A stretch of DNA of 23,521 nucleotides, from IMG/VR virus record IMGVR_UViG_3300030380_000445, positions 1-23,521 of that record. One strand, 5' to 3'. The DNA comes from a virus. Shown piece by piece: positions 89 through 13,495 of this stretch. The stretch's first letter is position 1. Each line of letters opens with the position of its first letter. Under the pieces are notes generated by a model. The model made no database searches. It saw nothing but the letters and a program-made list of their open reading frames with translations, and was not told the DNA's origin. Made by a program: the position numbers and the translations under genes.

Positions 89-1877
89 AATATACTTAGA
101 CTTTGAAACGTACTATGACGTACAACTGTCTCTCAGTAAAATGAGTACGGTACAGTATGTCAATCATCCTGACTTTAAGGTCTGGGGTGTTGGTATCAAA
201 GTAGAAGACGGACCCACTGAATGGTACAACGAGGAAGAAACACCAGAGATATTGTCACAGATAGACTGGGATAACACCGCAGTTGTTTGCCACAATACTT
301 TGTTTGACGCATACATACTTACACAATACTACGGTTACAAGCCTGCTTTTTATTACGATACTGCGGCCATGTCCCGTGGTCTGTATCCGAACATGTCCGC
401 TAGTCTCGCGAATGCTGTGCGAAGACAGTTTCCAAACGATGAGACTATGCGCAAAGGTGAAGAACTTGTAAATGCCAAAGGCGTACGTGATTTGGACCCT
501 GAGCTGGACGCACAGATTGGAGGCTATTGCATACAAGACGTAGATTTAACGTATGCTTTGTTCCAAGACTACATGCCTTTGTATCCGGACAAGGAGCTAC
601 GCATCATAGATCTTACTGTACGTATGTTTGTAGAACCTAGACTGATGTTGGACCGTGGACTATTAACAACTTACAAAGAAGAAATAGCCACTCGCACAGA
701 ACAAGCGATCCAGGCCTCTGGTACCACACGAGAGGTACTGGCTTCACAAGTAAAATTCAAAGAACATTTAGAATCGCTGGGTATAACAGTTCCTACAAAG
801 AAAAGCCCAACGACAGGTAAACAAATACCTGCGTTTGGTAAAAACGACAGTGCTTACATACAAATGTGTAAGATGTATCCAGAACATAACAACATATGGG
901 AAGCTAGAGAGTTTGTTAAATCTCGTATTGAAGAGACCAGAGCCCAACGATTTATAGACTCTACTAATCCTGATGGTACATTTAGTGTACCGTTGCGATA
1001 TTATGCCGCACATACTGGCCGATTTGGTGGTTCGGACAAAATCAACCTGCAGAATCTACCAAGAGGTTCGACACTCAGACGTGCAATCATGGCTCCTGAA
1101 GGGCAACGATTGTATATAGCTGACTTGTCTAACATTGAAGCTCGTATGCTTGCATGGTTGTCTAAAGAACACGACCTGGTAGAAGCATTTCGTACGGGAC
1201 GAGATGTGTACTGTGAATTTGCTAGTCAAATATATGGAAGGACGGTTACAAAAGATGACAAGTTAGAAAGATATGTAGGTAAGACAGCTATACTTGGTCT
1301 CGGGTACGGTATGGGGGCCGACAAGTTTAAGCAAACGCTCAAAACTGGCTCCCCTTCCGTCGATGTTTCTGATTCTGTTGCTCAACAAATTGTTATGCAG
1401 TACCGAGGTATGTATCCAAACATACCAAGATTGTGGTCTGGTATGAAAGACGCACTATTTCAAATGCTTAACCCTAGATCCGTAGGCATGATGTACGGAC
1501 CTTTGACCATCAAGATGCGTGCCTTAGAGCTACCAAACGAGATGGCATTGAACTATCCGAACTTACGGTTTGAAGCTGGTCAATTTATATACAACACTGA
1601 CCGAGATTACGTGCGAACTCATGGGCCGCGTGTAACAGAGAACGTAGTTCAAGCTTTAGCTAGACTAGTAATTACTGATCAGATGTTAGATATACAGTCT
1701 TTACCTCAAGTTGATATTGTATTGCAGGTACATGATGAGATTATTGCTATTGGTTCAAAACAAGATTCGGATGCTACAATGAATCAGATCCTTGAGATTA
1801 TGCGTACACCACCCGAATGGTGTGACGATTTACCGCTCGATGCTGAAGGAGGCGTTAGTAAAGTATATGACAAATAA
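75..1877 (+). CDS. Family A DNA polymerase with 3'-5' proofreading exonuclease
   Basis: This is the replicative DNA polymerase of the phage (600 aa, PolA-like, without a 5'-3' exonuclease domain). The N-terminal DnaQ-like exonuclease shows ExoI D9-x-E11, ExoII N74...D78 and ExoIII Y151-x3-D155. The polymerase domain shows the TGR motif (314-316), motif A D350-LSNIEAR, the O-helix R399-x3-K403-x7-Y411-G412, and motif C H553-D554-E555. The residue at the position of E. coli Pol I Phe762 is Leu407. The shape resembles T7-type and other phage polymerases. The start overlaps the end of the previous gene, the ribosome site is weak, and the 3' end overlaps the CsrA-like gene by 11 bases. Functional assignment is secure from the motifs; the exact phage subgroup is not. 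Confidence 0.97.
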   Translation: MNTTKIYLDFETYYDVQLSLSKMSTVQYVNHPDFKVWGVGIKVEDGPTEWYNEEETPEILSQIDWDNTAVVCHNTLFDAYILTQYYGYKPAFYYDTAAMSRGLYPNMSASLANAVRRQFPNDETMRKGEELVNAKGVRDLDPELDAQIGGYCIQDVDLTYALFQDYMPLYPDKELRIIDLTVRMFVEPRLMLDRGLLTTYKEEIATRTEQAIQASGTTREVLASQVKFKEHLESLGITVPTKKSPTTGKQIPAFGKNDSAYIQMCKMYPEHNNIWEAREFVKSRIEETRAQRFIDSTNPDGTFSVPLRYYAAHTGRFGGSDKINLQNLPRGSTLRRAIMAPEGQRLYIADLSNIEARMLAWLSKEHDLVEAFRTGRDVYCEFASQIYGRTVTKDDKLERYVGKTAILGLGYGMGADKFKQTLKTGSPSVDVSDSVAQQIVMQYRGMYPNIPRLWSGMKDALFQMLNPRSVGMMYGPLTIKMRALELPNEMALNYPNLRFEAGQFIYNTDRDYVRTHGPRVTENVVQALARLVITDQMLDIQSLPQVDIVLQVHDEIIAIGSKQDSDATMNQILEIMRTPPEWCDDLPLDAEGGVSKVYDK

Positions 1878-2052
1878 GAACTTAATATTGACCAGAAAAA
1901 AAGGCGATAAAGTAGTCGTACAACAAGGAGACCAGGTTGTTTGCGTTATAACCGTAACAAATATATCACCAACTCAATGCAAATTAGGATTTGAGGCTGA
2001 TAGCTCTGTACGTATAGATAGGGAAGAAGTATACTTAAACAAGGAGATTTAA
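1867..2052 (+). CDS. csrA: CsrA/RsmA-like post-transcriptional regulator
   Basis: This 61-aa protein matches the whole length of CsrA, a dimeric RNA-binding protein that controls translation by binding GGA motifs near ribosome sites. The N-terminus has the family strand LILTRKKGD (residues 6-14), with R10 at the place of the conserved first-strand arginine and K11 where a second arginine is usual. The end has RIDREEVY, where R52 corresponds to the RNA-contacting Arg44 of E. coli CsrA. I chose ATG 1867, which overlaps the polymerase end and has GAAGGAGG at 1845-1852 (spacing a little long). A longer frame from 1792 would run deep inside the polymerase and lacks family support. It is one base from the primase-helicase gene, so the three are co-translated. 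Target RNAs, host or phage, are unknown. Confidence 0.88.
   Translation: MTNKNLILTRKKGDKVVVQQGDQVVCVITVTNISPTQCKLGFEADSSVRIDREEVYLNKEI
2039..2046 (+). promoter_or_regulatory. Shine-Dalgarno of the primase-helicase gene, overlapping a CsrA-type binding core
   Basis: AAGGAG at 2041-2046 lies 7 bases before ATG 2054 and fixes that start. With the two preceding bases it reads ACAAGGA (2039-2045), an exact match to the core of the E. coli CsrA consensus (ACARGGA). A second ACAAGGA lies inside the csrA-like gene at 1923-1929. The ribosome site is clear; CsrA binding is only inferred, and the same heptamer also occurs in the polymerase gene near 589-595. Confidence 0.6.
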
Positions 2053-2053
2053 A

Positions 2054-4543
2054 ATGGAAGTTGTTTTCTTAAAAGCTAAGAAACCACTGTCCAAAGAAAT
2101 ATCACAAGAGGGAATTAAACCATACCCTCTAATAAAGAACTTTAGTTCTGAACACTACGATATTTCTGTGGATGCAAAAGGTTTCAACAAACTATACAAA
2201 TTACTTACGGACCAAGCTGCAGCTGGCGCCTGTTTGCACAAAGGTTTATTAAAACGTCAATTAGAGGATGAGCCCAGAGCGTTCATGTCCGAACGTACAA
2301 AAACTACGCAGCTACTTGTGCTGGATGTAGACGGGTTACATACAACTAACCCAGGGGATCTACAAGCACTGGCCGACAAGATAATCTTGCAACTTCCAGA
2401 ATATTTCCATAACGTAAGTTATATTGTTCAGGCTAGTGCGTCTCTTGGGTTTAAGAAAAACACAGTATCTATGCATTTATTTTTCTTATTGGACATGCCC
2501 GTACACCCAAAGACTCTAAAGGACTTTATTCGTATGGTTAACTACCAAAGTGAGTTTCTTGCAGAACAGATTACGTTGTCAGCTAACGGCCAAAGCCTTT
2601 CGTACATATTAGACCCGTCAGTTGCAGACAACAGTAAACTAATATACATTGCACCACCAGTTCTAAAGGATGTGGACGATCCATATCCAGAAGGTAGATT
2701 TGTCAAGGTTGACCGTGGTTCGCCTACCCTTGAGATCTCCTCATCTTTGATTGGCGTGAATCCTGAAAAGGTACACGCGCTTGGTTTACAAATTAAAGAT
2801 AATTTAAGGAAGAAAAATAATCTTCCTAAAAGGGTAGGAAAAGTAACTACGGTCAACGTTGCAGGTGAAGCGCAAGAAGTACTACAAAATCCAGACAAGA
2901 TGACTATTCAGATATCTCGAGTGTCCGAACCTTTTGTTAATTGTAATGTTAACGGAGGTGACAGCGGAGGTTACTACTTTGTCTTAACCAATCCTCATTA
3001 CATGTACAACTTTAAAGGTGAACCTGTATGGGAGATAGAAAAAGCAGATCCAGAATTCTATAGAAGTATATTTGAAATATTTGCAGACAAGATAGATACA
3101 GAAACTAAAAAGAAACCAATTGTATTGCGTGATTTTTTTACAGATACATATTACAACGGAGTATATGATGAAACAAAACAACAATTTGACGATGAGTACC
3201 CGCTCACGCCCACCAATAAAAGTAGTATTAACGATTTTCTTAAGTCTCATGGTCGCCCTACCATGGATTTTGTTCCAGATGCTCGTGTCGTTTTTGATCC
3301 TAGTAGTGACAAAGGTATTGACCTGGAGACCGTTCCATACTCAGTAAATTTATTTAGACGTACAAAATACATGCTGCGTGAAGAAGAGAACGTAAAGAAA
3401 TTATCGTACGGTGAAGCCATAGAAATCCAAAAGATTGCACCAAATTTTTACAAGTTAATAATGCACGCGCTTGGCAACGGCAAACCAGAGTTCGAACACT
3501 TTATGAATTGGTTAGCTTACATATATCAATACAAAAAGAAAGCAATGACAGCTTGGATATTTACAGGCATACCAGGTACCGGTAAAGGTCTGTTCGTACA
3601 TAAAATACTTAAGCCTTTGTTTGGCGAAATGCAAACACCAATGCGTTCATTAGAAAACATAGAAGAGCAGTTTAACTTGTACATGAGAACTGCACTGTTT
3701 CTTGTAGTTGATGAGTTTCGTATGGCTGATTCAGGATCTGTAGGACGTATGGCTGACAAACTAAAACATCAGATTACAGAACCCAACCTTACCATCAGAG
3801 CCATGCGCACAAACCAAATTGAGTTGCCATCTTACACGAACTTTATTTTCTTAACTAACAGGGCAGATGCAGTCAAGATAGAAGACAGCGACAGAAGATA
3901 CAATGTAGCACCACGACAAGAACAAAAGATAGAAAACGTGCATCCAGAGCTCCTAGAAAACTTGTCCGCACTAGAACCAGAATTATATATAGTAGCTGGC
4001 GTTCTTAAAAAGTTTGTGGTCAACGAACGCATGGCCCACACAGCGCTAGAAAATGATGCTAAGAAAGAGATGAAAGAAGTATCTATGTCTATTCTGGAAG
4101 AATTTGCAAATGCAATACGTACACGCAACCTAGAGTACTTTACTGATGTGTTAGATATACCACTTACAAACACCTTTGACGCAGGCGGTATAAGTACGGC
4201 GCAACGGTATTTAAAAGATTGGTTGTCTACCACTGGCACAGAACAAGTTATACCATTAGCTCACTTTAAGGTTGTGTACGATGCACTCACAGATAGTCGT
4301 AACACACTATCGCAAAGAGACTTTTCTAAGCGCATGTCAAGGTTAAATATTAAGACAGCACGTAAACGTATCAGCAAGGATCGCAACGCTGGTATACCAC
4401 GCGGAGTTGTATTGACTTGGAAAATAGACAATAATGTTCGAGAACAACTTATAAAAGAACACTTTGACGAAAGGGATTTAAACTTATTAGATAATGGACA
4501 ATCTAACGCAACCCAATCGTCCAGACCTAATCTCAACGGTTGA
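2054..4543 (+). CDS. Primase-polymerase / helicase fusion (AEP primase plus DUF5906-type SF3 helicase)
   Basis: This 829-aa protein probably primes and unwinds DNA at the phage fork. The N-terminal third looks like an archaeo-eukaryotic primase/PrimPol domain: LDVDG with D91 and D93 as metal ligands, S139-M-H141 as the sxH motif, and a third acidic site near D187-D192. The C-terminal part is an AAA+/SF3-like ATPase: Walker A GIPGTGKG (505-512, K511), Walker B VVDE (D553, E554), a sensor asparagine in FLTNRAD (N602), and D613-R614-R615 as a candidate arginine finger. It follows csrA by one base and its last 50 bases overlap the Cas4-like nuclease. The ATPase part is certain; the PrimPol assignment is good but rests on short motifs. 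Confidence 0.92.
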   Translation: MEVVFLKAKKPLSKEISQEGIKPYPLIKNFSSEHYDISVDAKGFNKLYKLLTDQAAAGACLHKGLLKRQLEDEPRAFMSERTKTTQLLVLDVDGLHTTNPGDLQALADKIILQLPEYFHNVSYIVQASASLGFKKNTVSMHLFFLLDMPVHPKTLKDFIRMVNYQSEFLAEQITLSANGQSLSYILDPSVADNSKLIYIAPPVLKDVDDPYPEGRFVKVDRGSPTLEISSSLIGVNPEKVHALGLQIKDNLRKKNNLPKRVGKVTTVNVAGEAQEVLQNPDKMTIQISRVSEPFVNCNVNGGDSGGYYFVLTNPHYMYNFKGEPVWEIEKADPEFYRSIFEIFADKIDTETKKKPIVLRDFFTDTYYNGVYDETKQQFDDEYPLTPTNKSSINDFLKSHGRPTMDFVPDARVVFDPSSDKGIDLETVPYSVNLFRRTKYMLREEENVKKLSYGEAIEIQKIAPNFYKLIMHALGNGKPEFEHFMNWLAYIYQYKKKAMTAWIFTGIPGTGKGLFVHKILKPLFGEMQTPMRSLENIEEQFNLYMRTALFLVVDEFRMADSGSVGRMADKLKHQITEPNLTIRAMRTNQIELPSYTNFIFLTNRADAVKIEDSDRRYNVAPRQEQKIENVHPELLENLSALEPELYIVAGVLKKFVVNERMAHTALENDAKKEMKEVSMSILEEFANAIRTRNLEYFTDVLDIPLTNTFDAGGISTAQRYLKDWLSTTGTEQVIPLAHFKVVYDALTDSRNTLSQRDFSKRMSRLNIKTARKRISKDRNAGIPRGVVLTWKIDNNVREQLIKEHFDERDLNLLDNGQSNATQSSRPNLNG

Positions 4544-5249
4544 GGTCACGGAGGACGTAGAACTAGGCCTGGTACCTGCATGGTCATACTCGGCTTTAAA
4601 AACTTTCGAACAATGCGCGTACAAAACCTACATAGGTAAAGTCAAACGTGTCAAAGAAGACTTTGGTCCTGCAGCAGAACGAGGTACGCGTATACACGAC
4701 GAAGCAGAACGTTACGTACGACATGAGATTGGCGAACTACCAGAATCACTTCGAAAATTTTCTCACAAATTTTCTGAGCTAAAACAGCTTTTTGCAGATG
4801 GAAAAGTCCAAACTGAAGGAGAATGGGGCTTTACCCTATCTTGGGAACCGACAGGTTGGATTTCTCCCGACACTTGGGCACGTGTAAAGTTAGACGCCCT
4901 GGTATCAGAGACAGACACATCAGCTCGCGTCATAGATTACAAGACAGGTAAACAGTTTGGCAATGAAATTGCGCACAGCCAACAAGCTTTAATCTATGCA
5001 ATAGGTACTTTCTTTATGTTTCCAGATCTAGAAGTAGTTAACACAGAATTGTGGTATTTAGATCATGGAACAACTATGGAGCAAACCTATACGCGAGATG
5101 AAGCTATGTTATTTATGCCTAAGTTGCATGAGCGAGCTATAGCTATGACTACAGCTACTAAGTTTCCACCAAACCCAAGCACTTACAACTGCAGATGGTG
5201 TTCGTTTGGTAAAGGACCAGAACCCCATTGTGAATGGGGAATGTATTAG
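4494..5249 (+). CDS. PD-(D/E)XK exonuclease, Cas4/RecB-like, with probable Fe-S cluster
   Basis: A 251-aa RecB/Cas4-type nuclease, likely used in recombination-dependent replication or end processing. The core is visible as H68 in GTRIHDEAE, D134 in KLDAL, and D148-Y-K150 followed by TGK, then the Gln-rich motif SQQALIYA (162-169). Four cysteines, C41 plus C233-x2-C236-x9-C246, are arranged like the iron-sulfur ligands of Cas4 and AddB: one before the core and three near the C-terminus. The ATG at 4494 is inside the end of the primase-helicase gene (50-base overlap) and has only a weak ribosome site, so start is a little uncertain; no later in-frame ATG precedes the core. No other CRISPR component is present, so a phage recombination role is more likely than spacer acquisition. 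Confidence 0.9.
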   Translation: MDNLTQPNRPDLISTVEVTEDVELGLVPAWSYSALKTFEQCAYKTYIGKVKRVKEDFGPAAERGTRIHDEAERYVRHEIGELPESLRKFSHKFSELKQLFADGKVQTEGEWGFTLSWEPTGWISPDTWARVKLDALVSETDTSARVIDYKTGKQFGNEIAHSQQALIYAIGTFFMFPDLEVVNTELWYLDHGTTMEQTYTRDEAMLFMPKLHERAIAMTTATKFPPNPSTYNCRWCSFGKGPEPHCEWGMY

Positions 5250-5306: not shown

Positions 5307-6656
5307 ATGAACGATGAATGTAATATTCCTGCGCCTTATGCGCACCAAAAATCCACAACAGATTTTATAGTTAAAACAAAAACATGTTTAATTACGTCCG
5401 ATCCAGGCACTGGTAAAACACGTGCAGTGCTAGACGCACATGCTATACTTGGTGGTAAGACTTTAGTCTTGGCGCCACTTTCAATATTGGAAGCAGCGTG
5501 GGGGGAGGACATAAGTAAGTTCCAACCCGATATAAAATACGGAGTAGCTTATGCAAAAAATCGTAAACAAGTATTTGAAGATAGCGAAAACGAAATGGTC
5601 ATCACTAATTTCGAAGCCGTTAATTTTCTACAAAAAAATACACATCTCATTGAGAAATTCGATACTGTCGTTATTGACGAGTTTACCGCTTTTAAAAATC
5701 GACAAGCCAAACGCAGTAAAAATCTCAACAAAATTATCTCATACTTTACTAATAGGATTGCCATGTCTGGTACTCCTAATAGTAATACTATTCTAGATAT
5801 CTGGCACCCCGCATTCCTTGTGGACGGCGGGGCACGTCTGGGTACACGGTTCTATGCTTTTAGACACCAAGCTTGTACACCTAAGTTCAATGGCTTTGCC
5901 AATGAATGGGTAGATAAGCCTGGCATTGAAGAGGCTGTAGCAAATAAACTTTCTGACATTTCGATACGCTACGCTTTGTCTGACTGCATAGATCTACCAG
6001 ACAACATTGTACGTACTGTCAATACTAAACTTACACCAAACATACAAAAACAGTACAAGACACTGGCTGATGAGTCTGTCTTGTATACAAAATCAGGAAC
6101 TGTTAATGCAATTAATGCAGCCGCACGTGTCAAGAAGCTGCTTCAGCTAGTCACGGGCGCAATCTACGATGAGGATGGCGTTGTACAGTTCGTGCACCAG
6201 GAACGTTACGACATAGTTATGACGTTAGTGGCCCAACGAGCGCATTCGCTTGTAGCATTTAACTGGCGGCACGAACGCGACGCTCTTGTAGAGATGGCAC
6301 AGAAAGAAGGCATGTCGTACGAAGTTATAGACGGCAGTGTCCCAGCTGAACGTAGGAAAGACATAGTATCTAGATACCAAGCCGGACAGATTAAGGTCCT
6401 ATTCTGTCATCCACAATCCGCATCGCATGGTCTTACACTTACTCGGGCAAACACAGTGATATGGTGTTCACCCACGTACAATGCTGAGCATTATCAGCAG
6501 TTTAACCAGCGCATATACAGAGCAGGTCAAACACAAAAGACTGAGACAATACTCATTCAAGCCAGAGGCACGTGGGAACCTGAGGTGTACAAAAAACTCA
6601 ATACTAAGTTGGGACGTATGGAAAACTTATTACATATCTTAAAGGAGGTATCATGA
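5307..6656 (+). CDS. SNF2-family (SF2) DNA helicase/translocase
   Basis: A compact 449-aa phage version of the SNF2 ATPases that move on duplex DNA and remodel DNA-protein complexes or branched DNA. Motifs in order: Walker A SDPGTGKT (31-38, K37), motif II D124-E125-F-T, motif III SGTPN (154-158), the second RecA-like lobe from about residue 305, and motif VI QRIYRAGQ (401-408) with the SNF2-typical RAGQ. The ribosome site GGAG (5295-5298) lies 8 bases before ATG. It ends in an ATGA overlap with the next gene. Such genes are frequent in phage replication modules beside family A polymerases. No substrate-specific accessory domain is visible. Confidence 0.94.
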   Translation: MNDECNIPAPYAHQKSTTDFIVKTKTCLITSDPGTGKTRAVLDAHAILGGKTLVLAPLSILEAAWGEDISKFQPDIKYGVAYAKNRKQVFEDSENEMVITNFEAVNFLQKNTHLIEKFDTVVIDEFTAFKNRQAKRSKNLNKIISYFTNRIAMSGTPNSNTILDIWHPAFLVDGGARLGTRFYAFRHQACTPKFNGFANEWVDKPGIEEAVANKLSDISIRYALSDCIDLPDNIVRTVNTKLTPNIQKQYKTLADESVLYTKSGTVNAINAAARVKKLLQLVTGAIYDEDGVVQFVHQERYDIVMTLVAQRAHSLVAFNWRHERDALVEMAQKEGMSYEVIDGSVPAERRKDIVSRYQAGQIKVLFCHPQSASHGLTLTRANTVIWCSPTYNAEHYQQFNQRIYRAGQTQKTETILIQARGTWEPEVYKKLNTKLGRMENLLHILKEVS

Positions 6657-7054: not shown

Positions 7055-7732
7055 ATGTCTAATGATATAAGTATAGTAACGAGTGAAGTGCCAGCTCACG
7101 TAAAACAAGGCGCAAATCTGGGTAATGAAAACATTAACTCAGAGCACTTATCTACTCCACGTTTGAAACAGCTACAGCAGTTGTCAAACGAAGTTGATGA
7201 GAACCATAGTGAGTATATTGAAGGAGCCAAAGTTGGTGACTTCATTAATACTGTAACCAAAGAAAGCTACGGCAAAGAGTTGTTTGTAGTTAACGTACAC
7301 TTTAGAGAAGAGTACGTTGTATGGGTCAAAAGAGAAAAAGGCGGTGGTCTTGTAGGTACATTCCCTACACAGGCAGAAGCTATTAAGTATCTTGAAGACG
7401 GTGGTAACAAGGTTGAAGACCATGAGATCACACAGACTCAAACTCACACTTTGCTTAAAGTAGATGACAAAACAGGAGATATCTCAGAGATCCCTTTTTT
7501 GTTTGACTGTGCTTCATCTAAGTTAAGAGTATCTAGAGAATGGAATACTCAGATTATGAAACTAGGTGGCGACAGGTTTGCTTCTCTTTGGAAGCTTGCT
7601 TCAGTATCAACAGCTAACAAAGCAGGACAGAAGTTTATGAACATATCTGTTTCAAACGTAGGTTGGTTAAAAGAAGATACTTACAATGTTGCTAAAGGTT
7701 TTTACGAAAAGACTTTTGCAAATAAATCCTAG
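7055..7732 (+). CDS. Phage DNA-metabolism protein, candidate ssDNA-binding protein
   Basis: A soluble 225-aa protein beginning with a Ser/Asn-rich leader, then PRLKQLQQLS, a GAKVGDFINTVT stretch, and a beta-rich part with YVVWVKRE that could form an OB-like or related fold. Similar phage proteins with a 'GAK-G-x-x-NT-T' segment sit in replication or recombination blocks and are often guessed to bind ssDNA. The C-terminus (YEKTFANKS) lacks the acidic tail typical of T7 gp2.5 and bacterial SSB, which argues against a standard SSB. AAGGAG at 7041-7046 supports ATG 7055. Position between a helicase and a junction nuclease supports a DNA role; the exact function is inference. Confidence 0.88.
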   Translation: MSNDISIVTSEVPAHVKQGANLGNENINSEHLSTPRLKQLQQLSNEVDENHSEYIEGAKVGDFINTVTKESYGKELFVVNVHFREEYVVWVKREKGGGLVGTFPTQAEAIKYLEDGGNKVEDHEITQTQTHTLLKVDDKTGDISEIPFLFDCASSKLRVSREWNTQIMKLGGDRFASLWKLASVSTANKAGQKFMNISVSNVGWLKEDTYNVAKGFYEKTFANKS

Positions 7733-8198: not shown

Positions 8199-8451
8199 TT
8201 ATGTAAACTCACCACCACATTACAACAGTGGTAACATCGAATGCATTGATGCAATAGAAGAAAGTATGACACCTGATGCCTTTAAAGGTTATCTAAAAGG
8301 TAACATACAAAAATATATGTGGCGTTATGAAGCTAAAAAAGGACTTCAAGATGTGTTAAAAGCACAATGGTACCTAAATAGACTAGTAAAAACGCTCGAA
8401 AAAGAAGAAACGCTATCTGACGCACGTACAAGCCCGCCAGATAATTATTGA
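8191..8451 (+). CDS. DUF3310 protein
   Basis: An 86-aa protein matching the phage DUF3310 family: SPPHYNSGNIECIDAIE at the N-terminus and a helical F-K-G-Y-L-K-G-N-x-x-K-Y-x-W-R-Y segment followed by D-V-L-K-A-x-W-Y-L. The family is widespread in phage replication regions and is sometimes called a nucleotide kinase, but no kinase P-loop is visible and the biochemical role is not established. GGAG (8181-8184) 6 bases before ATG fixes the start. It is the last gene of the + strand block, directly before the terminator. Confidence 0.92.
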   Translation: MTDYVNSPPHYNSGNIECIDAIEESMTPDAFKGYLKGNIQKYMWRYEAKKGLQDVLKAQWYLNRLVKTLEKEETLSDARTSPPDNY

Positions 8452-8478
8452 TTTAGTTGGACCTAAGGCCTTACCTAC

Positions 8479-8522
8479 CCTCACAAAATGCGTTAGACGC
8501 GATCCTGTGAGGTCATTTTTTT
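8479..8522 (+). terminator. Rho-independent terminator of the + strand replication block
   Basis: CCTCACA (8479-8485) pairs with TGTGAGG (8506-8512), with a second small stem GCGT/ACGC in the loop (8490-8500), followed by a run of seven T (8516-8522). It lies 28 bases after the DUF3310 stop, where the two convergent transcripts meet. The T-run codes for the Lys-rich end of the HNH gene on the other strand. Read from the - strand, no T-run follows the stem, so it probably works only for + strand transcripts. Confidence 0.85.
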
Positions 8523-8758: not shown

Positions 8759-10516
8759 TTATATAGTATACACTTTCAAAGCTTTTGCTTTGCCTTTTAC
8801 TTTAATAGTATTGTGCAAGTACGCTTCAGGGATCTTGCTAGCTGTACGTTCACCAATAAGTATATCTACACCAGCTTCTTTAGTTGCACTCTCTAATCGA
8901 GCGGCCGTGTTTACCGCATCACCTATAGCAGAATAATCAAATCTAGAATCTGACCCCATATTACCGATGATTGCAGAACCCGTATTTACACCAATACCTA
9001 TGGCTATCGGTTCGGGCAATTCCTTCTGCAGCATACGCATTGCCGTGCACATATCTTGGGCACAGGCGACTGCGCGTTGTTCGTGTCCATCTAAATCTAG
9101 GGGGGCATTAAAGATAGCCATGCACGCGTCGCCTATGAACTTGTCCACCATACCACCATGAGCCTGGATGCACGTAACTTGTTCAGTCAATACTCTATTC
9201 ATTATCTCTGTTACTTGTTCAGGTTCTAATTTTTCGGACAGATTTGTGAACCCTCTGACGTCAGTAAACAAGAACGTACAATCTCTACGCTGGCCACCCA
9301 GTTGTAGTAGATCAGGATTCTTTTGTAAACGTGCGACTTGTCTAGGATCAAGGTAGTGCTCAAACTGTTTCTTAATCTGTTGTCGTAGTTTATATTGTTC
9401 TCCAAATCGTAACCAAAGCTCTTGCACAGATATAAGTGTCATTGATATTGCACTATAACTAAAGTCTATAAGTATATTATTACGTACAAAATACACTGCA
9501 GCTATTGCTGTGCACGTGTACATACCTCCTACAGCTAAAGCAGTTCCCAAGACCGGGAGGGTACGAATCAATATAACTAACAGTGATAAAGATCCAACTA
9601 GTATAAGTAATTCATATAGTAAACTAGCACTTGGTACTTGAGGCACATCAACTGTTAAGCTTTCAGCCAAAGCAGCTTGTACCTCATGCGGATACAATAA
9701 CCCAACTGGCGTGGCTATTTGAGGCATCACACCTTTTGCACTCACACCTACAAACACAAACTTATCTTTTACATTTAGTTCATCGAGCGTAGTCCGTGGA
9801 GTGTCAACCCATGGCACCCATCTACGGCCCAACTCGTCTACCGGTATCTCTGCATAGTTCGGTAACGTGAGTTCTACGATGCTGCCTTCAGATGTACGAA
9901 TCACATATGTATCAGAACTAGATAATATCTTCATTACTTCCATACCAAAAGCTGGCACCCAACCATCAAGAGAAGGTGTCTGAAGCAACAAAGGTAATCT
10001 CCTAACTAAATTATCTACTTCTGTTCGTGCCACAGCCAAGCCCTGGCTACTAGCGTTTGCAAGTTCAGACGTATTCTGTATCACACCCTGTGCAAAAACT
10101 CCTTGTACGGGAATCCCATCACCTAAAATAACAGTCCCTATTGTCGGAGGGTAGCTACCATTATCGTTTTCAAACATTGCAAGTACGCTCGGTGTGCCTG
10201 CCAAAGCCTTTGCAAAAGCTGTGTCCCCGCCAAATCTATCTTCTTGAGGAAAGGCGACAACCCATCCTACGCCCCAAGCTCCTGCATCAATCAGGTCGAG
10301 ATGAATGCGTGCAAGGTCTTGGCGCGGAAATGGCCAGCCGCCTCTCATGGAAACGTCTTCTTCTGTTATATCTAGAATTACAAAATTGTTACTTGGCTCT
10401 GGGATTTGTACTAGTGCATCAAAAGTTTTTAACTTAACTACTTCAAGTGCCTGCCAGTTAAATAATAAAGGTATGCATAAGATTGGTATGCTTATAAGTG
10501 AAATCCATTTCTTCAT
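8759..10516 (-). CDS. CHASE2-domain transmembrane adenylate cyclase (class III)
   Basis: A 585-aa inner-membrane sensor enzyme predicted to make cAMP from ATP. Layout: one helix (about 5-22), a large extracytoplasmic CHASE2 domain (about 24-290; early motif KTFDAL and GGWPFPRQ), three helices (about 299-319, 322-344, 348-369), then a cytoplasmic class III cyclase (about 405-585). Metal aspartates are D419 in FTDVRGFT and D463 in FIGDA. K459 is the adenine-specifying lysine. The partner position is S529, where Asp or Thr is usual. N536 and R540 are the transition-state pair. All core catalytic residues are therefore present. ATG 10516 overlaps the FecR gene stop (ATGA). CHASE2 cyclases in bacteria are often encoded beside FecR-domain proteins, exactly as here. 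Finding one within a phage late block is unusual. Confidence 0.95.
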   Translation of the reverse strand: MKKWISLISIPILCIPLLFNWQALEVVKLKTFDALVQIPEPSNNFVILDITEEDVSMRGGWPFPRQDLARIHLDLIDAGAWGVGWVVAFPQEDRFGGDTAFAKALAGTPSVLAMFENDNGSYPPTIGTVILGDGIPVQGVFAQGVIQNTSELANASSQGLAVARTEVDNLVRRLPLLLQTPSLDGWVPAFGMEVMKILSSSDTYVIRTSEGSIVELTLPNYAEIPVDELGRRWVPWVDTPRTTLDELNVKDKFVFVGVSAKGVMPQIATPVGLLYPHEVQAALAESLTVDVPQVPSASLLYELLILVGSLSLLVILIRTLPVLGTALAVGGMYTCTAIAAVYFVRNNILIDFSYSAISMTLISVQELWLRFGEQYKLRQQIKKQFEHYLDPRQVARLQKNPDLLQLGGQRRDCTFLFTDVRGFTNLSEKLEPEQVTEIMNRVLTEQVTCIQAHGGMVDKFIGDACMAIFNAPLDLDGHEQRAVACAQDMCTAMRMLQKELPEPIAIGIGVNTGSAIIGNMGSDSRFDYSAIGDAVNTAARLESATKEAGVDILIGERTASKIPEAYLHNTIKVKGKAKALKVYTI

Positions 10517-11667
10517 CCTGACCCCTGTGTAATAGTAATGGTAGAACTACCGCCACCATTCACTACAATCTGTTGGTATTTACCGTCCTGTATTAATATT
10601 ATAGTGTACCCTTGCGACGCATCTACGGTCAACTGCGCGTCCTGCGTTACCTTTCTACGGAAAGATATTTGATCTCCCTGCAACAATGTAATGATTTGTG
10701 TCTCTAAGTCTTGTCCTATATTCGTGCCTTGTACTAAGGCGCCTGTGGATAAGTTATCTGAATCAAGCTGATCTATTTCTTCTATGATCGCCAGCAAGTC
10801 TTCAAAGAAGTTTACATCTAAAAAATTTATATCTAATTCTGTGAATTCTAAGGCATCTTCAGCCAGGTAATCTACTTCTAACTCATTAAACTCTAAGTAA
10901 TCTATATCTAATATGCCTCCACTGTCTGCTACAGAGGCTGTGGACTCTTCTGTGGATAACTCTGATTCGTCAGGCGGACTGACTATAAGCATGTTGTCTA
11001 TAACATCTAAACTAAGATCAAGTATGACAGGGTTAGTAGGCGAGCTCTCCCATACATCTACTGTTGTAGCTTCGTAGGGTTTATTGAGCGTAACACTACC
11101 AGCTGCAGTCGTGACAAGTATCTCACCACTTGATAGCCCATTAACATCAGGTAATAAAATAATAAGCGAACGTCCAAGTTCATCCACAGTACAGGTAAAA
11201 TCGGTCCCACGAATAGCAATATCAGCCGTAGGTGTAGATAGTTTAATGTTCTTTTTATCAATTTTGCCTAGTTTGCTACTAATAAATCTAGCTGTGCCAG
11301 TGGCAAACTTCATTGCCATTTCTCCCTTTGTAGGGTCTGGATCGTAAACGTATTTAGTAATGACGAGCTTTGAGTGCTCGGTTAATTTAACAACGGAATC
11401 ATCTAAAAAGGTAATAGCTATTCTGCCAACAGACGTACGGACATCGTCCATCTGTTGGATGTCAAAATCAAGAGCAGCCCCGTAGGGCTGGTCCCGTATA
11501 ACCTCAGCAGTGCCTGTAAGCTCTGATATATCTCCTATACTAGCAACCAGTGGTTGTGCCGCCATCGTTTTGTACGATGCACACAGTACCATTGTTACCA
11601 TTAGAAATAATTTTGAGCCAGTCGCTAGCCAACGTAGATGATTGAGTAATGTTATATGTTCTGCCAT
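10513..11667 (-). CDS. Exported FecR-domain protein with acidic repeats
   Basis: A 384-aa protein, probably periplasmic, and likely the partner of the CHASE2 cyclase. An N-terminal hydrophobic segment (20-32) followed by MAA at 35-37 looks like a Sec signal peptide; there is no lipobox. The FecR domain spans about 70-165, with DDVRTSVGRIAITFLDDS (74-91) and the hallmark TPTADIAIRGTDF (145-157). Residues about 252-300 form acidic-hydrophobic repeats of the type D-I-D-Y-L-E-F. The C-terminus (about 320-384) is beta-rich and ends STITITQGSG. The iron-signalling transmembrane helix of true FecR is absent, so this is the FecR fold only. The start at 11667 overlaps the curlin-like gene by 128 bases; later ATGs at 11601, 11592 and 11565 exist but lack ribosome sites and would weaken the signal peptide. 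Confidence 0.88.
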   Translation of the reverse strand: MAEHITLLNHLRWLATGSKLFLMVTMVLCASYKTMAAQPLVASIGDISELTGTAEVIRDQPYGAALDFDIQQMDDVRTSVGRIAITFLDDSVVKLTEHSKLVITKYVYDPDPTKGEMAMKFATGTARFISSKLGKIDKKNIKLSTPTADIAIRGTDFTCTVDELGRSLIILLPDVNGLSSGEILVTTAAGSVTLNKPYEATTVDVWESSPTNPVILDLSLDVIDNMLIVSPPDESELSTEESTASVADSGGILDIDYLEFNELEVDYLAEDALEFTELDINFLDVNFFEDLLAIIEEIDQLDSDNLSTGALVQGTNIGQDLETQIITLLQGDQISFRRKVTQDAQLTVDASQGYTIILIQDGKYQQIVVNGGGSSTITITQGSG

Positions 11668-12238
11668 TGCCTGTCTGATCTAAATAGAAGTAGCCACTTT
11701 GGTACCCACTACCATCAAAGGTAACAGAGTTAGAGTCGCCATCTATATCTACATATGATGTACCTAGGTCATAATCTATATCAAAGTCGAGTGTGTTAGA
11801 ATCGCCATTGATAACCCAGTCTAGGTCAAGAGTAGAAGCAAGAGCATTTGTAGCAACGTTCAAGTTAAAATCATTACTTGAACCTGTTACATCTACATTG
11901 TAGTCGCCTGAGTCAGCACCGTAAGTATCGGTTGGGTCTACTTGTATATCAAATACATTGCTATCGCCGTCAAACTCAAAGAACCCTGTAATGCCATCAC
12001 CTAAGATATCACCTAAGAATTTGTTTGAGCTACCTATTTGGTTTATATCTAATGTAAGATTTAAACCGTCAAGGTCGAGCGGGGTCATAGTGCCTGAGAC
12101 AGCGTCCAACCCACCAATAATATTTGATGAGCCTAGTTGCTCCAGGTCTATGTTAGCGTTGTTACCAGACTGATCTATATAGATCTCGTTGTCTGCATAC
12201 AAAAAACCAACCAATAGTAAGGGTAAAAGTTTTCTCAT
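11540..12238 (-). CDS. Secreted curlin-repeat-like protein, probable CsgG substrate
   Basis: A 232-aa exported protein: signal peptide MRKLLPLLLVGFLYA (1-15), then Asn/Asp/Gly-rich, regularly spaced repeats. About nine units contain Q-x-G-x-x-N or G-x-S-N cores, for example near residues 21-34, 65-74, 89-99, 117-127, 143-153, 165-175 and 186-199. This resembles the curlin strand-turn-strand repeats of CsgA/CsgB, though with more Asp and fewer Gln than the classical subunits. Two cysteines, C220 and C232, close the C-terminus. ATG 12238 is preceded by GGAG at good distance and overlaps the csgG-like stop (ATGA); a TTG start at 12250 is part of that ribosome site and is rejected. Position directly after csgG makes it the likely cargo. 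Amyloid formation is inference. Confidence 0.85.
   Translation of the reverse strand: MRKLLPLLLVGFLYADNEIYIDQSGNNANIDLEQLGSSNIIGGLDAVSGTMTPLDLDGLNLTLDINQIGSSNKFLGDILGDGITGFFEFDGDSNVFDIQVDPTDTYGADSGDYNVDVTGSSNDFNLNVATNALASTLDLDWVINGDSNTLDFDIDYDLGTSYVDIDGDSNSVTFDGSGYQSGYFYLDQTGNGRTYNITQSSTLASDWLKIISNGNNGTVCIVQNDGGTTTGC
11570..12190 (-). repeat. Degenerate curlin-like protein repeats
   Basis: About nine units of roughly 20-25 residues built round a G-x-S-N or Q-x-G-x-x-N core with alternating hydrophobic residues. They are degenerate, not identical, at the DNA level, so the repeats are old and kept by selection on the protein. The C-terminal unit carries the first of the two cysteines. Confidence 0.75.
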
Positions 12239-13053
12239 TCGTAACTCCAATATCCAGCTTGTTCACCCTCCGTGATAATTCCTAACACGGCGGTTTCTAT
12301 AGCAGAGCGCAAAGCGAGTCCTCCAGACTCGTTTCTCACTACGCCACTTTCTATCTCGACTAGCTCAGTGCCATCCTCGATAAAACGAAACACGTCGTCT
12401 GTTAATGATACACTAAGAATGGTCTTGGTTACTAATTTCTCAACTAGCACCTGACCGCTACTGACTGATATGAGACGTAGCTGGATTGTCAACGTATCAG
12501 TCCTGTAGGCCTTAGATATACCAACACCTAAATAACGAGCTCCCGCGCCACCGCTGGTCTCGTTAGCTTCGTACGACACGACAGAGCCTTCTAATAAAAG
12601 ACCTGCGAACAACAATGTCTGCAACTTATTGTCGTCATTGTTTTGTTCTCTGCCGCTACGTATGATCTGTCTTTCTTTTGTGAGGTTGTCGATTCCTATG
12701 CGTTCAACAACCGTAAAGAAACCATCATTGTTTTTGCCTGCATCTTTTAGTGCTTTGATTAAGTATGCGCTAGGGCTCTGTGTTACAGCTGTAGAGAAGC
12801 TGGCATACATAGAGTTGCTTAGTCTTTGTCCTGTTTGGTCAGTAAATGCGTTTCCGTACACAGCTATGGTAGGTTTTCTGGTAGGCGTACGAACATCAGC
12901 AAGACCGGTTACAACCAGTTCATCTATACTGGCTGCTTCTATTTTTTTAGCTGGCGCTATCGTATTTTCTATAGGGTCAAATAATAATGACGCGCAACTA
13001 GAAAGTAAAAGAACCGATAGGCACAGTAATTTCGGTGACATTCCCTTCTGCAT
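12235..13053 (-). CDS. csgG: CsgG-like outer-membrane curli secretion lipoprotein
   Basis: A 272-aa homologue of CsgG, the nonameric outer-membrane pore that exports curli subunits. A lipoprotein signal ends in LSSC with C20 as the lipidated residue. Strong family matches are SFSTAVTQSPSA near 85-96, then ALKDAG, ERIGIDNLTKERQIIR (117-132), the EGS-x-x-x-YEAN / SGGAGARYLGVG stretch (155-178), SKTILS-like KTILSVS (210-216) and VFRFIE (221-226). These follow the E. coli protein nearly end to end. In the constriction loop the Phe (F86) is kept, but E. coli Asn55 is Ser85 and the Tyr51 position is not Tyr. It starts at ATG 13053 (or M5 at 13041) inside the csgF-like gene (56-base overlap) and ends coupled to the curlin-like gene. 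No CsgE is seen nearby. Confidence 0.95.
   Translation of the reverse strand: MQKGMSPKLLCLSVLLLSSCASLLFDPIENTIAPAKKIEAASIDELVVTGLADVRTPTRKPTIAVYGNAFTDQTGQRLSNSMYASFSTAVTQSPSAYLIKALKDAGKNNDGFFTVVERIGIDNLTKERQIIRSGREQNNDDNKLQTLLFAGLLLEGSVVSYEANETSGGAGARYLGVGISKAYRTDTLTIQLRLISVSSGQVLVEKLVTKTILSVSLTDDVFRFIEDGTELVEIESGVVRNESGGLALRSAIETAVLGIITEGEQAGYWSYE
12245..12249 (-). promoter_or_regulatory. Ribosome binding site that decides the curlin-like gene start
   Basis: On the - strand, TGGAG precedes ATG 12238 by 6 bases and lies inside the last codons of the csgG-like gene. It supports ATG 12238 and not the upstream TTG, and implies translational coupling of pore and substrate. Confidence 0.7.
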
Positions 13054-13495
13054 CTGTAATTTTGAGTGTAATCATTGTGCCGTCCTCACTTACAGAGTAC
13101 TCAATAGTATTACCCATGAGTTCTAGCGTGCCACTTGTGCTTGGGTTTTCACCAAACAAAGCATCTACTAGTTGTCTACTTAGCTGTGCATATATTCTAG
13201 ACTCTAAGTTTCTTATGAACCTAGCCAGCGTAGTGTTTTCGGCGTCCCGTTTGAGCTGTTCTTTATATGCTTTAAGTTCAGCTTTGTTTGCTTCTTTTCT
13301 ATTAAACTCTTGGTTTTCAATAGTTAAATAGTGAGAAGATGTCCCTACTCCGCTAAATGACGGAGACTTAAATTGGTGTGTCATTTTGTCTGCATGTAAA
13401 ACAGAACTCCAAAAGAGTAAACAAAATGCAATCATGCCAGTCCAAGCTGTTAACTTAAACCAGTCAATTCTATATCTAATCTTTCCTTTGGTCAT
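12998..13495 (-). CDS. csgF: CsgF-like curli secretion accessory protein
   Basis: A 165-aa exported protein resembling CsgF, which inserts its N-terminus into the CsgG channel and links secretion to surface nucleation. A long basic leader and hydrophobic stretch end at ...SSVLHA, giving a mature start DKMTHQFKSPSFSG that aligns with GTMTFQFRNPNFGG of E. coli CsgF, the very segment that enters the pore. Further on are a charged helix (about 65-85) and a C-terminal beta region (TLELMGNTIEY... ITLKITDAEGN) like the CsgF end. It overlaps csgG-like by 56 bases and the preceding holin-like gene by about 20. The order csgF-csgG, with the substrate next, differs from E. coli csgDEFG but keeps the F-G pair. 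Confidence 0.9.
   Translation of the reverse strand: MTKGKIRYRIDWFKLTAWTGMIAFCLLFWSSVLHADKMTHQFKSPSFSGVGTSSHYLTIENQEFNRKEANKAELKAYKEQLKRDAENTTLARFIRNLESRIYAQLSRQLVDALFGENPSTSGTLELMGNTIEYSVSEDGTMITLKITDAEGNVTEITVPIGSFTF

Follow-up and report, generated by a model that had tools for sequence, protein, structure and literature searches.

Phage-encoded CsrA proteins as such have already been published, and they are usually discussed as captured cargo with which a phage manipulates its host. The csrA-like gene analysed here lies in a replication operon, within a stretch of viral DNA of 23,521 nucleotides (hereafter the window; positions 1 to 23,521 of the IMG/VR record IMGVR_UViG_3300030380_000445), itself a portion of a genome some 60 kb long. 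Its location raises the question of whether the protein acts on the host or serves the phage itself.

Family assignment and sequence conservation

The csrA-like gene (1867-2052, + strand) runs from ATG to TAA and encodes a protein of 61 residues, MTNKNLILTRKKGDKVVVQQGDQVVCVITVTNISPTQCKLGFEADSSVRIDREEVYLNKEI. The profile search proposed in the earlier note was run on this product and confirmed the CsrA family with both Pfam and PHROG. Residues 6-58 match PF02599 (CsrA) with 47.2 bits and an E-value of 2.2e-12, the curated cut-off of the family being 27 bits, and the product matches PHROG 9500, 'CsrA-like regulator', with an E-value of 1.8e-9. All 65 distinct aligned homologues, encoded at syntenic loci of related phages, match PF02599 as well. 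Together with the matches of the flanking genes described below, these results establish that a CsrA-family gene lies between polymerase and primase, as the earlier note had proposed. The same note had called the protein full-length, which holds for the core domain and fails for the C-terminal tail: the product ends at the residue equivalent to position 53 of the 61 in E. coli CsrA. In seven loci (L079, L083, L039, L047, L045, L082 and L096) the C-terminus is longer by about 15-20 residues and continues beyond the start of the primase in a different frame.

The protein shares with the CsrA/RsmA/RsmE family its length, its strand order, the LILTR motif and the equivalents of Arg44, Val/Ile42 and Glu46, but it is only 37-39% identical to E. 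coli CsrA and to RsmE. It differs from the family by an N-terminal addition (MTNK), a beta2-beta3 loop longer by four residues, Asp in place of His43, mostly Asp in place of Pro37, and the short tail; the loop, the two substitutions and the tail are typical of the subfamily. With Asp at the positions of H43 and P37, the RNA preference of the protein could differ from that of E. coli CsrA. A divergent clade has MSN in place of MTNK. MTNK may be conserved on account of the polymerase and not of CsrA, since the first csrA codons share their bases with the polymerase gene.

Twelve positions are invariant among the 65 distinct proteins: M1, N5, L6, L8, T9, R10, K39, A44, I50, D51, R52 and E54. The E. 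coli counterparts of L8, R10 and R52 are L4, R6 and R44, which confirms the conserved Arg52 of the earlier note. More generally, the equivalents of E. coli L4, T5, R6, A36, R44 and E46 are invariant and the V42 position is always Ile, so that the RNA-binding residues of the family (L4, R6, R/K7, V/I42 and R44) are either invariant or conservatively replaced in all 65 sequences. L4 and R44 are reported to be particularly critical to RNA binding by CsrA (PMC7652899). Membership of the CsrA family together with RNA binding is thus very probable, as judged from the sequence.

Lys11 of the phage protein aligns with E. coli Arg7, and the earlier note had suggested that this R-to-K change could alter the choice of RNA. 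The alignment does not bear this out. Lys is found at position 11 in 56 of the 56 main-clade sequences, the set to which the counts of Lys11 and of the substitutions refer, and Arg in the group's divergent clade. P. fluorescens RsmE, solved with the hcnA Shine-Dalgarno RNA (2jpp), reads LILTRK exactly as the phage CsrA does. Lys11 was therefore discarded as a functional change and regarded as normal variation within the family.

An AlphaFold monomer model built from the 65-sequence alignment has a mean pLDDT of 78, with residues 1-8 below 50. Of the five strands and C-terminal helix of the CsrA fold, it predicts strands at 14-20, 23-32 and 38-44 and a helix at 53-60, and leaves beta1 and beta5 unmodelled. 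In CsrA both of these strands pair with the other subunit (PMC7652899), so that a failure of the monomer prediction at these places is no surprise. The solved structures closest to the model are CsrA, RsmA and RsmE chains (best Foldseek E-value 0.025), with a structural match to CsrA chains of Z up to 4.7 and rmsd 6.2 over 50 residues. The predicted fold is in line with the sequence result and contributes little beyond it.

Gene order in the replication operon

The upstream neighbour is a DNA polymerase A gene (75-1877, + strand; PF00476, E 2.7e-32), the last 11 bases of which overlap csrA. Downstream, a single base separates the csrA stop codon from the ATG of a primase-helicase-like gene (DUF5906; 2054-4543, + strand) matching PF19263 (E 2e-18), PHROG 24712 (E 7e-158) and DNA primase PHROGs. 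A PD-(D/E)XK exonuclease (4494-5249, + strand; PF12705, E 4e-19) and a SNF2-type helicase (5307-6656, + strand; PF00176, E 3e-14; PHROG 62) belong to the same operon, both assignments being supported by synteny. The replication block of the window also holds a strong match to the Pam3 phage gp34-like protein (7055-7732, + strand; PF23977, E 3e-57). A convergent switch point at 8451-8513 separates the + strand replication genes from a - strand cassette, lysozyme and tail genes.

Scanning viral contigs with the csrA protein gave 48 loci with 56-89% identity. The order and orientation polymerase-csrA-primase were the same in all 48, and the exonuclease and helicase genes came next after the primase wherever the stretch reached that far. 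A second scan, avoiding selection on csrA, was made with the primase and comprised the best 80 of 219 viral candidates and one contig from a metagenome-assembled genome (MAG), with primase identities down to 68%. Eight of these 81 loci begin within the primase, so that their upstream part was unreadable, and were left out. In the 73 readable loci csrA was found upstream of the primase without exception. The gene is thus a core, fixed member of the replication operon of this marine phage group and no optional extra. It evolves under purifying selection, its median dN/dS being 0.14 (polymerase overlap left out) versus 0.07-0.12 for the neighbouring genes. Because of this selection and of its strict synteny in the 73 loci, a stray host gene is ruled out.

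We compared this arrangement with those of known phages. A survey of 2020 listed phage CsrAs in 30 of 2517 phages, including a few marine metagenomic viruses which are possible members of the present group (PMC7366521). E. coli CsrA used as query retrieved 85 INPHARED records; no INPHARED phage matched the present csrA protein with tblastn. Known phage csrA genes are likewise CsrA-family genes on phage genomes, but unlike those of the present group, none of the five considered here lies between polymerase and primase: in four INPHARED records the gene is near repressors or unknown genes (PA8, Fyn8, D279) or follows an exonuclease (VvAW1), and in JC1 it adjoins the capsid gene (PMC9144972). The nearest named relatives, phages of the KPP25/phiA008 type, have polymerases of 27-36% and primases of about 30% identity; unlike the present group, KPP25 and phiA008 have no csrA beside the primase and no match to the csrA protein. 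No integrase was detected in 11 large phage records. What is new is a divergent, replication-locked core subfamily of CsrA, carried by phages without detected integrase and placed like RegA of T4.

Translation start sites and proposed role

The likely ribosome-binding site of csrA is a purine-rich GGAGGCG (1846-1852, + strand) lying inside the polymerase gene. That of the primase, probably of AAGGAG type (2040-2046, + strand), lies inside csrA and is by its motif a candidate CsrA site. Since both putative sites are located within the preceding genes, translational coupling along polymerase, csrA and primase is plausible.

Potential CsrA targets were sought at the same starts. An ANGGA motif is present at -21 of csrA in 68% of the relatives and near the primase start in 73 of 73; in the latter case it is mostly the Shine-Dalgarno sequence itself or an ATGGA at the start codon, and the ATGGA start context is not conserved across the phage group. 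With RNAalifold, neither the csrA starts nor the primase starts of the relatives showed a conserved hairpin containing GGA, the sole consensus helix being a weak upstream stem of 5 pairs without GGA. Compared with synonymous-codon shuffles, ANGGA was not significantly enriched in any of 11 genes of the window (largest z 1.8, for the exonuclease), and no RNA of CsrB/RsmZ type was matched in the window at the Rfam gathering thresholds. A bare Shine-Dalgarno site may be enough for CsrA to act on, in which case the missing hairpin and enrichment are compatible with self-regulation. Since neither signal was found, it is position and conservation that point to such self-regulation.

The presence of csrA throughout the sampled group and its embedding in the replication operon suggest that it serves the phage's own programme. 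Our leading reading, given slightly less than an even chance, is that this divergent RNA-binding protein of CsrA type, fixed in the replication operon, most likely targets the phage's early mRNAs. From its operon position csrA is assumed to be expressed early, along with the replication genes. Its product would fold as the usual strand-exchanged CsrA dimer and would bind A(N)GGA in single-stranded form within Shine-Dalgarno sites, blocking the loading of ribosomes. As the protein accumulates, it would lower the synthesis of early and replication proteins by way of the phage's own early mRNAs, in the manner of RegA; host mRNAs would possibly be bound too. RegA of T4 is similarly a small RNA-binding translational regulator encoded in a core replication cluster and universal in its phage group (PMC3014915). 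It differs in belonging to an unrelated protein family and in having A/U-rich sites, and RegA-like repression by the phage CsrA is a proposal made by analogy. That phage mRNAs are the target is a tentative assignment, early phage mRNAs being slightly favoured over host mRNAs. More tentative still is the view that this CsrA subfamily has turned into a core, replication-locked timer of early and replication protein synthesis, perhaps in hosts that have no CsrA.

Alternative functions and significance

The protein might instead bind host mRNAs, compete with host CsrA or form mixed dimers with it, and so shift metabolism, surface structures or the expression of CRISPR-Cas to the advantage of the phage. 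Such a role was proposed in 2021 for phage CsrAs, which were suggested to suppress CRISPR-Cas and to steer host physiology. The same study noted that RsmA represses cas mRNAs in Serratia, that csrA-bearing phages tend to infect csrA-bearing hosts and that a plasmid-borne CsrA can function in another genus (PMC8450108). The conserved RNA-binding residues of the present protein fit this reading. However, host manipulation does not call for the strict lock into the replication operon, and the published phage CsrAs are described as closely similar to bacterial ones (PMC8450108), whereas the present protein is divergent. The one hint of a host also tells against it: a 60.8 kb contig of the phage group (L131, PBPT01000002.1) is held by the Neomarinimicrobiota MAG RS350, and may indicate the host or be a binning error. 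In this MAG no CsrA was found other than the phage gene, and only 3 of 39 other genomes of its family have one. With RS350 as the host, the phage would meet no cellular Csr system that it could take over, provided that the contig is not mis-binned. Action on host physiology is possible, and we give this host-directed role appreciably less than an even chance. An action on enteric curli or motility, traits that the earlier note describes as under CsrA control, finds no footing here, since the phages are uncultured and have no established host, and RS350 shows no CsrA other than that of the phage.

It is improbable that the CsrA fold has been kept for a changed job, for instance as a partner of polymerase or primase or as a component of the virion, RNA binding having been lost or become secondary. 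The fixed place beside replication proteins, the longer loop and the subfamily-specific substitutions at P37 and H43 would be in line with such a change, and the CsrA of phage JC1 was detected in virions by one peptide (PMC9144972). The invariance of the L4, R6 and R44 equivalents is what would be expected under selection for RNA binding and speaks against it.

The window also carries, at 8759-13495 on the - strand, a cassette encoding CsgF, CsgG, a curlin-like ORF (weak match only), a FecR-domain protein and a CHASE2-cyclase. As called, the FecR and curlin-like ORFs (10513-11667 and 11540-12250, - strand) share 128 bases, the latter having a TTG start as listed; FecR may in fact begin at an internal ATG. 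Among 26 records of the group, PF02599 was found in all 26, with one copy each, versus CsgG in 13 and the cyclase domain in 17. Two of them (57.0 and 58.8 kb) encode csrA without CsgG or cyclase; these records carry no completeness estimate, and both genes are likely to be truly missing from them. The csrA gene thus goes with replication and not with the cassette. Relatives of CsgG and of the cyclase are found in the myophages Pelagibacter phage HTVC008M and Methylophilales phage Melnitz, about 6 kb or less apart, so that a similar cassette is common to different phage types. A joint host-control package of csrA, cyclase and curli genes, as the earlier note had envisaged for csrA and the cyclase, is very improbable: beyond their presence in the same window, the two parts lie on opposite strands, unrelated myophages carry relatives of the cassette, and the distribution over the 26 records largely rules them out as one unit.

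Being fixed in the replication operon, csrA is plausibly a built-in translation regulator of this phage group. The 65 distinct homologues, with Asp at the His43 position and a longer beta2-beta3 loop, form a test set for what CsrA needs to recognise RNA. If the proposed role in the phage's own programme is true, CsrA and RegA would have solved one problem independently.
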